Shown here: positions 5,577-8,849 of the stretch, piece after piece
How positions within the stretch are numbered: the stretch's first letter is position 1
Layout: every line of letters begins with the position of its first letter
DNA from: a virus
Direction: 5' to 3' (one strand)
Length of the DNA: 44,048 nucleotides
Virus record (IMG/VR): IMGVR_UViG_3300042465_005581
Coordinates: 1-44,048 of that record
Position numbers and translations under genes: made by a program
The notes under the pieces: generated by a model
What the model saw: only the letters and a program-made list of their open reading frames with translations
Told to the model about the DNA's origin: nothing
Databases searched by the model: none

Positions 5577-7199
5577 TTAAAGAGTGTTTAAACCATCAAC
5601 GACAATCTTACCGTAAAACTCTGGTCTTACGATTTTCTTAGCGTATCTAGTCATAACACCTCTTCTTGGAGTAAAGTTAACTGGATCGTAAACTAATGGA
5701 GTCATAATCAATGGTACATAAGGTGCGTAAACTGCTCCTGTTTCGAAGAAGTTAGAACCTTTGAAACCTAACAAGATTACGTTTTCAGTCATATAAGGAT
5801 TCTTATAAACATCATATCTGTTAGAGATTGAACCAATGTTAGTTACACCTGCTGCAAATTGTAAAGCATCTTTACCTGGGTTTGCAGAGAATCCGTTCAT
5901 AGATTCAAGAATTGTAGCTACGTTTGGAGATACAACGATAAAGTTTGCACCACCTCTCATAGTTAATTGGTGAATCTTGTTAGAAATCTTTTGCAATTTG
6001 ATACCCAATGTTTGATACCAAGTACTCTTTGTGTAAGCAGATGCTGCTGCTGCGTTAGCATCAATTTGGAAAGAAGAACCATTCCAATCATATCCAACTC
6101 TTGCAGACCAGTATTCAGTTGAGAATGCGTTTTGCTGTAACATCTCAAGGATTTCTAAATCAATCTCTAAAGAGATGTATTCAGATAACATTTGAGTTAA
6201 TTCAGCTTCAGCATCTACTGAATGGTATGCGTTCAAGTCTTGTGCTAATTCTGGAGTCCAGATTGCTTTCAACTTACGAGTTTTAGCAACGATTGGTTCA
6301 GATTTTAATTCCAATTCAATTTCTGGGATTGCAAGGTCTTGACCTCTATCTTCGAAATCACCTCTTGAAATATCAGTTGGTTGAGCATGGTATGCTAACA
6401 CTTGAGTTACTAAATCAGTTGCAACTAATACCGCTGAAGAAGATACATAGAATGATGCAGAACCATTAGTAGCTAATGTAGTTAATTCAGGGAAGTGAGT
6501 TACAGCTGTAGAGCCAGAAACTTTAAAACCTCTAACTGCATTGTAGTCAGCATCTGCAGGTAAACCTACAGTTACTTTTCTCCAACCGTTTGGAGTTGCT
6601 GCGAATGATGCAGATAATGTTTCATTACCTACGAAATCACTTACAGAACCTGAAGTTACAACTGCTGTTGCGTTTGCAGTTTTGTCGTTGATAGTATATC
6701 CAAATCTACCAGCGCCATAAAGACCACCTTCAGCTGCTTGAGTAGAACCCAATTTGTTTCCAGCTGGAGATAAAGAATCTTTACCGAAAGTACCACCATT
6801 ACCGAACATAGAACCAGATGTACCAGTTGCTGCGTTTGGTTTTTGTGTATCGTTTGTTGAACCATATTTGAAATCCATATAGAAAATCAAACCTGATGGT
6901 AAGTTCATTGGTTGTACAGAAACGAATTCTTTTGCAGCGATGCTACCGAAGATTCTTCTTACCAATGGAAGAGCTACACCAGCCCACTCTTCTGAACCTG
7001 CTGAAGTACCAGTTCTAGTAGCTTCATCAAGCAACTGCTTTGCTTGATTCTCAAGCATTACAGCCATACCGTGTTTAGTAGTTTCGGAACCAACTCCTTC
7101 TAATAAACCGGTCTTTTCCCACTTTGCTTTCAAACCTCTAGTTTGCTCAAGCATTAATGACTGTGGGTTTTTTCCTGTCATAATTTGTTTTAAGTCCAT
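5577..7199 (-). CDS. Major capsid protein (T4 gp23-like)
   Basis: The 540-residue protein shows the gp23 N-terminal pattern: KWEKTGLLEG (27-35), MLENQAKQLL (48-57), then PLVRRIFGSIAAKEFVSVQP and MNLPSGLIFYMDFKYG. The centre holds a Gly/Ala/Ser-rich insertion region, and the C terminus (TRYAKKIVRPEFYGKIVV) is typical of the family. It forms the hexamers of the prolate head. T4 gp23 is trimmed at an (L/I)xE site by gp21; LLDE/A at residues 56-60 is a suitable candidate here. It follows the scaffold gene by 29 bases and is followed by an intrinsic terminator, fitting heavy late expression. The leader before its ATG is A/T-rich and has no Shine-Dalgarno sequence. Confidence 0.95.
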   Translation of the reverse strand: MDLKQIMTGKNPQSLMLEQTRGLKAKWEKTGLLEGVGSETTKHGMAVMLENQAKQLLDEATRTGTSAGSEEWAGVALPLVRRIFGSIAAKEFVSVQPMNLPSGLIFYMDFKYGSTNDTQKPNAATGTSGSMFGNGGTFGKDSLSPAGNKLGSTQAAEGGLYGAGRFGYTINDKTANATAVVTSGSVSDFVGNETLSASFAATPNGWRKVTVGLPADADYNAVRGFKVSGSTAVTHFPELTTLATNGSASFYVSSSAVLVATDLVTQVLAYHAQPTDISRGDFEDRGQDLAIPEIELELKSEPIVAKTRKLKAIWTPELAQDLNAYHSVDAEAELTQMLSEYISLEIDLEILEMLQQNAFSTEYWSARVGYDWNGSSFQIDANAAAASAYTKSTWYQTLGIKLQKISNKIHQLTMRGGANFIVVSPNVATILESMNGFSANPGKDALQFAAGVTNIGSISNRYDVYKNPYMTENVILLGFKGSNFFETGAVYAPYVPLIMTPLVYDPVNFTPRRGVMTRYAKKIVRPEFYGKIVVDGLNTL

Positions 7200-7228: not shown

Positions 7229-8482
7229 TTACTTAATAATACCTGCTAATTTTTTGAATCTATCAGCGAAATCTGCAGATTCTGCAATTACTTGCTTAGC
7301 TGCTTTTGGTGCAGTTGATTTAACTGCCTTACTTGCGATTCCTTCTTTGATTGTTTTCTTAGCTGCTTTGTTAGATGAAGCGTATTTGAAATTCTCTGCT
7401 AATGTAGAGAATACTAATTTAACCTCTCTAACTGATTTTGTTCTATCCAAAGTTTCGATAACTTTAACCTTCTGTTCGTTGGTCATGTTATGTGCTCTGA
7501 ATAATTTGTTAGCGAACAACAACTTAGCGTTCAATAAGTTCACCTCGTTGATAGTTTTTTGTAAAGATTTGATAGTTTTGTAAGCTTCTTGAAGTTCTTT
7601 TTCTTTTTCTTCTTCTTCAGCTTCATCAACTTTCTCATCATCTTTTTTCATGTCTGCTTCCATTTCACGAAGAATTTCTTCTAAATCGATAACTTCGTTT
7701 TTCTCTTCGTCATCTTTCATTTCTTCTTCGTTGGTTACAACCAATTTAGGGTCTGGACCCTTGTCTGTACCTGCTTCTGAACCATCTGCCAAGTTTTCAT
7801 TTTTTTCTTCCTTGTCATCTTCTTCTTCAGCTTCATACATTTCTTCTTCAGAACCTTCTTCAGATTCTTCATCACCTAATTGAGCTTCAAGTTCTCTGAT
7901 AATAGCTTCTAAATCCAAGTCATCTTCTGACTCTTCTTCATCACCCATTTCAGAACCCATGTCATCGCCCATTTCATCACCCATTTCTGCAAATGGGTCT
8001 TCGTCGCCTAATTCTTCTTCAGAATCCATACCAGCTTCTAATTCTGCTAATCTAGCTTTAAGTTCAGCGATTTCATCTTCTGGACTTTTTTCAGCTGCCA
8101 TAGCATCTTCTTCACCCGGCATTTCTTCTTCAGAGATATCAGCAACTTTTTTGTAATCGGTACCCGCTTGCTCTGGCTTACCACTATCCTTCTTAACACC
8201 TACTGATAAATCAGTAATTGCATCGTAGTTTGGTTGTTTACCAGGAGTTTCAGCGTAACCAGCATCTACTTTAGAGCCAATTTCGTCCGATTTCAATTCC
8301 TCGTCTACTTTTTCTGCATCTTTCTCTTCTGCTTCAGCTTCTGCTCTTAACTTTTGAGATAAGATAGATTGAAGTCTTGGAGTAAATGCTTCTTCAAGAG
8401 CGAGTTTTGCGTTTGCTAATGCAGTTTCTTTTACAGCTTTAGCATCGGCAATTGCTTCTTTTAACAATTTTGAATTTGCCAT
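7229..8482 (-). CDS. Prohead core scaffolding protein (T4 gp22-like)
   Basis: The 417-residue protein is helical and extremely acidic. The N terminus (LKEAIADAKAVKETAL, LEEAFTPRLQSIL) and C terminus (LNAKLLFANKLFRAHN, VKLVFSTLAENF) match the ends of T4-like gp22 scaffolds. Residues about 50-290 are an expanded Glu/Asp-rich low-complexity spacer, making it much longer than T4 gp22 (about 270 aa). It should form the internal core on which gp23 assembles and be degraded by gp21. It sits directly before the capsid gene. Unusually for this window its start has a consensus Shine-Dalgarno sequence (AAGGAG, 7-base spacer), and a structured leader separates it from rpsU. Confidence 0.9.
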   Translation of the reverse strand: MANSKLLKEAIADAKAVKETALANAKLALEEAFTPRLQSILSQKLRAEAEAEEKDAEKVDEELKSDEIGSKVDAGYAETPGKQPNYDAITDLSVGVKKDSGKPEQAGTDYKKVADISEEEMPGEEDAMAAEKSPEDEIAELKARLAELEAGMDSEEELGDEDPFAEMGDEMGDDMGSEMGDEEESEDDLDLEAIIRELEAQLGDEESEEGSEEEMYEAEEEDDKEEKNENLADGSEAGTDKGPDPKLVVTNEEEMKDDEEKNEVIDLEEILREMEADMKKDDEKVDEAEEEEKEKELQEAYKTIKSLQKTINEVNLLNAKLLFANKLFRAHNMTNEQKVKVIETLDRTKSVREVKLVFSTLAENFKYASSNKAAKKTIKEGIASKAVKSTAPKAAKQVIAESADFADRFKKLAGIIK

Positions 8483-8681
8483 TTTATTTCTCCTTAAATT
8501 TGTTTGTGAAGTTATTTAGAAAGGAAACTCCAATGTAATTATGTTGGTTGTTCGGTCACACCTTATAAGAGAAGGGTATTCATTAACCAACTGTGTCTTA
8601 AAATCGAAATCCCATACAAAATGGGATATTTGATAATAAATATAGTATTTTTTTAGAAAACTAAAGAATTAATATGAAAAT
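8483..8681 (-). other. Structured leader between rpsU and the scaffold gene
   Basis: This 199-base gap holds no convincing ORF. It has a perfect 7-bp hairpin ATCCCAT/ATGGGAT with a 5-base loop (8609-8627), followed on the coding strand by TTCGATTTT, so it may be a weak terminator or a processing stem. A second inverted repeat, GTTGGTT/AACCAAC (8543-8549 with 8585-8591), encloses a small CCTT/AAGG stem. An AATAAATATA element (8635-8644, plus strand) resembles the motif before other transcription units. The gap could hold the promoter and translational control of the scaffold-capsid mRNA. Confidence 0.5.
8490..8495 (-). promoter_or_regulatory. Consensus Shine-Dalgarno site of the scaffold gene
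   Basis: The coding strand reads AAGGAG, a 7-base spacer, then ATG (8480-8482). I looked at the leaders of most other genes and found A/T-rich sequence or at most partial matches, as expected for a Bacteroidota host. This is the one clear, well-spaced site, and it lies one gene downstream of the phage bS21. Confidence 0.85.
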
Positions 8682-8849
8682 TTATTTTTTTCTTTTAGCT
8701 TCTTCCATTTGTAAACGAGTCTTAACCGATGGTTTTGTGTAGGTTTGTCTATCTCTTAATTGTTCAATTTGTTTTGAATTTTGAACTTTCTTTTTGTATT
8801 CTTTAAGAGCTCCCTCAATGTTGCCACCTTTTACATTGATAATCAACAT
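8682..8849 (-). CDS. rpsU: Ribosomal protein bS21
   Basis: A 55-residue frame runs from ATG at 8849 to TAA at 8682. The sequence begins MLIINVKGGNIEGALKEYKK and continues through QLRDRQTYTKPSVKTRLQ to a lysine-rich end. It matches bS21 in the MLII start, the N-I-(D/E)-x-A-L-K-x-Y-K-x-K helix and the RxxxxxxKPSVxxR block. bS21 binds the 30S platform near the 3' end of 16S rRNA. In Bacteroidota it is about 64 residues and helps hide the anti-Shine-Dalgarno sequence; this copy ends near residue 55. The start lies 3 bases after the stop of the upstream gene. It is followed by a structured leader and then the scaffold gene. Phage-borne S21 genes are known; here it sits within the head genes. Confidence 0.9.
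   Translation of the reverse strand: MLIINVKGGNIEGALKEYKKKVQNSKQIEQLRDRQTYTKPSVKTRLQMEEAKRKK

Follow-up and report, generated by a model that had tools for sequence, protein, structure and literature searches.

A conserved Shine-Dalgarno sequence before the scaffold gene of a phage whose bS21 lacks Tyr54 and the C-terminal tail

There is no settled answer as to why phages carry a gene for the ribosomal protein bS21, and published work takes it that the phage protein conceals the anti-Shine-Dalgarno (anti-SD) sequence of the 16S rRNA as the protein of the host does. The locus described here raises the question in a particular form, as a phage bS21 gene lies directly in front of a late gene that carries a Shine-Dalgarno (SD) sequence. 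A reading of this DNA made from the sequence only had proposed that phage-modified ribosomes selectively translate the late head mRNA. The analysed stretch, called the window in the following, is the complete IMG/VR record IMGVR_UViG_3300042465_005581 with 44,048 bases, and its genes are almost wholly encoded on the minus strand. In the order of transcription the head region consists of the large terminase, the portal, the prohead protease, small genes, a DUF5856 gene (phrog_858), bS21, a gap of 199 nt, the scaffold and the gp23-type capsid protein:

8682–8849, minus strand: phage bS21 gene, 55 aa (PF01165, E=7e-14)
8490–8495, minus strand: scaffold SD, AAGGAG, sequence context AAATTTAAGGAGAAATAAAATG
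7229–8482, minus strand: scaffold (prohead core) gene, 417 aa, acidic
5577–7199, minus strand: gp23-type major capsid protein (PF07068, E=2.9e-76)

The small protein reaches 51.8 bits with the PF01165 profile against a curated cut-off of 27 and thus passes as ribosomal protein bS21. The scaffold gene is named, without a family match, by its place between protease and capsid genes and by an N-terminus common to its relatives. From the bS21 stop to the scaffold ATG there are 199 nt, both genes being on the minus strand, and from the scaffold stop to the capsid gene start there are 29 nt in the window and 23–32 nt in most relatives. The capsid gene has an A-rich leader without SD, and the start of the bS21 gene itself also lacks one. 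Far from the head genes, between 23002 and 43814 on the minus strand, lies a long series of genes whose translations, judged by eye, look like glycosyltransferases, sugar epimerases and other surface-chemistry proteins.

Strength and conservation of the scaffold SD

All pairing energies given here hang on the 16S rRNA tail used for scoring, for which we assumed a Flavobacterium-type sequence. The scaffold SD is followed by a spacer of 7 nt (8483–8489) and the ATG (8482–8480), bearing out what had been read from the sequence, and its pairing energy of −8.2 kcal/mol is the strongest among the 45 predicted gene starts; the runner-up, gene 1564–2271, reaches −7.4 kcal/mol and the median is −1.8 kcal/mol. 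On the same scale AGGA gives −4.0, AAGGAA −5.1 and AGGAGGU −13.6 kcal/mol, and extended SD sequences of the rpsU type pair below −13 kcal/mol, a value that the scaffold SD does not reach. In the window the starts are A-rich, and SD are no more frequent at them than in mock windows. Mock windows beside the same 45 starts contain two to three sites at or below −8, 5.9% of the ATGs that are not starts have one such site, and a single site of −8.2 among about 45 starts, taken alone, is at chance level. To call it the only strong SD was therefore overstated, even if it is the strongest in the window. Scoring every start had been suggested as a check, with equal sites elsewhere as the refuting outcome, and such sites are indeed found to some extent: −8 is reached by 9/237 starts in a relative of 238 kb (G001) and by 5/174 in one of 198 kb (G013), both near the mock rate, with the strongest sites up to −12.4 kcal/mol. 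As the sole strong site of a whole genome the scaffold SD thus fails in the longer relatives. A conserved AAAAGGGAGGG site (−12.4 kcal/mol), which pairs more strongly than the scaffold SD, was also seen in two relatives (minus strand, regions L252:713 and L243:3254) before the gene of a 355–361 aa protein (MHKFYTSSYDASIYLQQP...).

A different picture of the site comes from its conservation. We traced about 20 head-region genes through up to 80 relatives, and among them the scaffold is the only one whose non-coding leader retains an SD: the 5-bp core is present in 63% of the distinct scaffold leaders, compared with 0–12% for most other head genes, and no SD was found for the capsid gene and the other surveyed head genes. 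The exception is gene 1564–2271 with an SD-like site in 62% of the relatives, which was rejected as a second conserved SD as it sits within conserved codons (GDIEQY) at the end of the gene before it. In the near clade with 99 distinct loci the scaffold is preceded by AAGGAG in 35, by AAGGA in 44 and by neither in 20, hence by AAGGA or better in 79/99. In many relatives the site is merely AAGGAA (−5.1 kcal/mol), and its state changes about nine times. That the scaffold SD is a chance match without function would fit the mock level of one site at or below −8 per about 45 starts, but it is already disfavoured by this conservation and we regard it as highly improbable; the site exceeds chance by its conservation, not by its strength. 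The expression 'late head mRNA' was weakened by the survey, as with the capsid gene and other head genes lacking an SD it shrinks to one gene unless translation is coupled.

The structured leader of the scaffold gene

The SD forms the end of a leader of about 150 nt, in which four helices have covariation support. The following elements are relevant here, in the order of their coordinates and thus from the SD backwards:

8507–8532, minus strand: hairpin P3, TGGAGTT/AACTTCA, just 5' of the SD, loop ending in AAT, 100% of cells paired
8543–8591, minus strand: stem P2, GTTGGTT/AACCAAC, with inner stem CCTT/AAGG, conserved AATGAATA and GTGACCGAAC, and covariation
8609–8627, minus strand: hairpin H1, ATCCCAT/ATGGGAT, strong covariation with two-sided changes in 5/7 pairs
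8635–8644, minus strand: TATATTTATT, match to the sense-strand promoter-like motif ATATTTAT, putative and presumed start region of the leader RNA
8654–8668, minus strand: near-invariant TTCTTTAGTTTTCTA, just after bS21 and upstream of the leader

Over the whole leader 97.7% of the cells are paired, and 45 two-sided changes were counted compared with 11.8 (sd 3.2) in shuffled alignments, none of 500 shuffles reaching the observed number; as a sliding control, shifting the partners abolishes the signal. Hairpin P3 is present in 165/166 leaders, its arms forming about 20 different complementary pairs, including TGGAGTT/AACTTCA, TAAGATT/AATCTTA, TGAAACT/AGTTTCA and TATAGTT/AACTATA, and it extends to gp23 phages at about 50% capsid identity, irrespective of the presence of an SD or of bS21. 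RNAalifold suggested that the SD pairs with TTCTTTA, a block in the 5' part; this was rejected, as the block remains unchanged in leaders that have lost the SD and is located 5' of the promoter-like motif. Searching Rfam 15 with the window and 14 relative loci gave no match at gathering score; the best candidate, the freshwater-2 RNA, scored 17.6 bits where 49.9 are required (E=2.9), a chance-level match.

Upstream of gene starts ATATTTAT occurs with a sense:antisense ratio of 29:3 and 27:0 genome-wide in the two long relatives G001 and G013, which suggests that the sense-strand motif is a phage promoter element located just upstream of the leader. It is the reverse complement of the T4-type late motif TATAAATA. 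The near-invariant TTCTTTAGTTTTCTA is probably another promoter element acting at the DNA level. As a recurrent promoter in the window CTTTAGTTTTCTA was discarded with three matches compared with 4.7 expected. Any role of the leader itself, be it in cis control of stability, of translation or of antitermination, is a guess. Apparently uncatalogued and present in a wide variety of gp23 phages, the scaffold-capsid leader deserves attention independently of the role of bS21.

The phage bS21 and its association with the SD

In F. johnsoniae Tyr54 of bS21 clamps the anti-SD, as recounted in PMC9723584 and PMC9976891. Aligned to bS21 of this species (7JIL), the window protein has Arg53 as equivalent of Tyr54 and stops two residues after position 54. 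The Bacteroidia bS21 that sequester the anti-SD have an aromatic residue at position 54 and a tail past it (total about 64 aa), and the window protein shows an arginine and no such tail. Of the 83 bS21 of the clade 82 have Arg at position 54, one has His and none has Tyr; most, including that of the window, have no C-terminal tail, the usual length being 58–59 aa with one group of eight carrying a longer tail. The 55 aa of the window protein result from one additional A in an A-run (8682–8700, minus strand) in comparison with relatives L003 and L006, and the same extra A is found in L002, whose bS21 is identical to that of the window. In a bS21 tree built from few columns the clade, with long- and short-tailed branches, is nested within Bacteroidota-type bS21 bearing Tyr54, and the loss of Tyr54 is therefore a derived state.

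The scaffold SD (at least 5 bp) is found in 69/73 loci with a short-tailed bS21 (two of the 73 having a divergent 90-aa form), in 0/8 with a long-tailed bS21 and in 8/16 without bS21 at the locus. Phages with a Tyr54-type bS21 encoded on the opposite strand (contrast loci L343–L381) show it at none of 11 distinct scaffold starts, which were assigned by position. Three records of 102, 137 and 198 kb, all of them fragments, carry the scaffold SD but no bS21 gene over their whole length. In some relatives without bS21 (L057 and L059) a small predicted membrane protein (e.g. MPLSEKQSSFISNNWSIIVGILTVAF...) takes the place of bS21 upstream of the scaffold.

In a Pagel-type test of correlated evolution dependence between SD and bS21 type was favoured on a protein tree (DUF5856+p139+MCP) with LR 23, a chi2 p of 1e-4 and 0/100 simulations, the estimated rate of SD loss being near zero with a short bS21 and loss occurring repeatedly elsewhere. 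On a second tree, from the leader and the 5' end of the scaffold gene, the correlation was weak (LR 8, p 0.09), and the three to seven independent pairs on supported branches gave no significant association, being too few to reach significance. As SD and bS21 lie within 200 nt of each other, exchange of the whole cassette can mimic coupling. The association is thus not robust to the choice of tree and a causal link is not demonstrated; the link between bS21 and SD that had been proposed finds support in the counts for the short-tailed, long-tailed and Tyr54 types, but not in the half of the loci without bS21 that keep the SD, nor independently of the tree.

Among isolated phages the capsid protein is related to those of Flavobacterium phage immuto (51%), Rhodothermus phage RM378 (39%) and Microcystis phage Mel-JY01 (54%), the latter being the nearest isolate, with a cyanobacterial host on record and a genome that uses SD more. 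Mel-JY01 (L260) shares the leader type and also carries bS21 in the head region. A search of bacterial genomes with the capsid gene found no host. The lack of SD excess and the Bacteroidota-infecting relatives place the window, at the level of the host group, with phages of Bacteroidota hosts, and with the SD-poor starts, the Flavobacterium-infecting relatives and the Bacteroidota-type bS21 the earlier claim that the anti-SD is hidden in the host group is very probably right. As a positive control we scored 80 Flavobacterium-type rpsU genes, all of which (80/80) showed −18 to −23 kcal/mol and encode a Tyr54 protein of 64–66 aa, with a median of −2.0 kcal/mol for the neighbouring genes.

Possible explanations and comparison with known systems

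The best single explanation, to which we give a probability of only about 0.38, is that AAGGAG is a selectively kept SD at the end of the structured leader of a late scaffold-capsid mRNA and that the tail-less Arg54 bS21 of the phage unlocks the anti-SD. The anti-SD of the host 16S rRNA would normally be kept in a pocket by bS21 (Tyr54 and the C-tail) together with bS18 and bS6. The gene immediately upstream of the leader would supply a bS21 that binds the 30S subunit and has neither Tyr54 nor the tail, and we infer that its incorporation could leave the anti-SD exposed on ribosomes with the phage protein, or on those left without host bS21. On such ribosomes initiation would become easier at the scaffold SD and harder on host mRNAs without SD, and the capsid gene 23–32 nt downstream of the scaffold might be reached by translational coupling. 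In F. johnsoniae reporters with a strong SD increased 1.7- to more than 4-fold with bS21 Y54A and deltaC, those without SD being nearly unchanged, and deltaC ribosomes initiated poorly on SD-less mRNA in vitro (PMC9976891).

Several points speak against unlocking. The scaffold SD is also kept at the 8/16 loci without bS21. Its −8.2 kcal/mol is weak beside AGGAGGU (−13.6) and rpsU (−18 to −23) and lies between AGGA, which had no effect in vivo in F. johnsoniae, and AGGAGGU, which gave about 2-fold (PMC9976891). In F. johnsoniae bS21-deltaC is poorly incorporated, being present in 11–16% of the particles (PMC9976891), and a freed anti-SD would boost the rpsU of the host too. Furthermore, no other late gene has gained an SD, and the scaffold SD is ordinary in SD-using relatives. 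Of the idea that bS21 makes head translation selective, what stands is that the gene lies next to the head genes and is read in the same direction, that its product has no Tyr54 or C-tail and that loss of these raises SD translation about 2–4-fold in F. johnsoniae (PMC9976891); the selectivity itself is as tentative as the points above imply.

Nearly as probable, and likewise tentative, is inheritance without dependence on bS21, in which leader and scaffold SD are ancestral, come from phages of SD-using hosts and decay here from AAGGAG to AAGGAA to none, the association with bS21 being due to common descent and to swapping of the neighbouring cassette of bS21 and leader. In SD-using genomes, distant gp23 phages carry these leader hairpins too, along with a strong scaffold SD, whether their bS21 has Tyr54 or Arg54, so that the SD of our clade can be a holdover; the same phages were rejected as support for a bS21-SD link, as their genomes use SD generally. 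The nine or so state changes of the SD, the weak correlation on the leader tree and SD present without bS21 fit this as well. Against inheritance stand AAGGA in 69/73 short-bS21 loci with a loss rate near zero there and repeated loss elsewhere on the protein tree, and the Bacteroidota-type bS21 of the clade implies that the package was not simply inherited whole. Where relatives have an SD-poor genome and lack bS21, the scaffold SD is weak or absent. We think it rather unlikely that the SD is used without the phage bS21, being loaded by host ribosomes temporarily devoid of bS21, as occurs in the autoregulation of rpsU, or by ordinary ribosomes aided by the leader hairpins: SD and leader do persist in relatives without bS21 and the bS21-lacking subpopulation of F. 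johnsoniae prefers SD mRNAs, but this subpopulation answers to much stronger pairing (below −13 kcal/mol) with AGGA being ineffective in vivo (PMC9976891), and SD loss is more frequent without a short bS21. That the phage bS21 is host-like, keeps the anti-SD hidden and uses its N-terminal half to choose phage mRNA, in line with proposals for other bS21 phages, with the scaffold SD being incidental, would agree with the published Bacteroidota phage bS21, whose residue 54 is aromatic and whose divergence is concentrated in the N-terminal helix (PMC9723584), but it fits the Arg54 and missing tail of this clade so badly that we consider it very improbable.

Returning to unlocking, its fullest form would be phage-made specialised ribosomes, with a clamp-less bS21 switching SD recognition on in a host lineage that switched it off and favouring essentially one late gene, the scaffold, via a structured leader. 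This form is doubtful. As the clade departs from the assumption of a hidden anti-SD and pairs a broken clamp with an SD-bearing late gene, the idea becomes testable with the existing F. johnsoniae bS21 variants and reporters.

The closest published systems are the freshwater Bacteroidetes phages of Chen et al. 2022 (PMC9723584), for which late expression and selective translation by the phage bS21 have already been proposed; what is novel here is the missing Tyr54 together with the scaffold SD. As in those phages, a Bacteroidota-type bS21 adjoins the terminase, portal, protease and capsid genes. Their bS21 (clades a–e) is encoded on the opposite strand and carries an aromatic residue at position 54 in 61/61, with divergence mainly in the N-terminal helix, whereas the window encodes its tail-less Arg54 bS21 on the strand of the head genes. 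Likewise, the Tyr54-bS21 loci compared here have an SD at no scaffold or capsid start, in contrast to the SD on the scaffold of the window. Similar to rpsU autoregulation in F. johnsoniae (McNutt et al. 2023, PMC9976891), where losing Tyr54 or the C-tail of bS21 favours SD mRNAs, an SD-bearing gene is found in an SD-poor genome. However, rpsU regulates itself through a pairing of 9–13 bp (−18 to −23 kcal/mol here), whereas the phage has 6 bp (−8.2 kcal/mol) on the scaffold gene and none at the start of its own bS21 gene. The bS21 of Pelagibacter phage HTVC008M (Mizuno et al. 2019, PMC6375957), which enters E. coli ribosomes as cited in PMC9723584 and PMC9976891, is also a phage bS21, but its reported host does not belong to the Bacteroidota and the issue of anti-SD sequestration does not arise. 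The leader, finally, resembles the structured cis-regulatory RNAs of Rfam in its covarying 5' hairpins, although no family reaches its gathering score.
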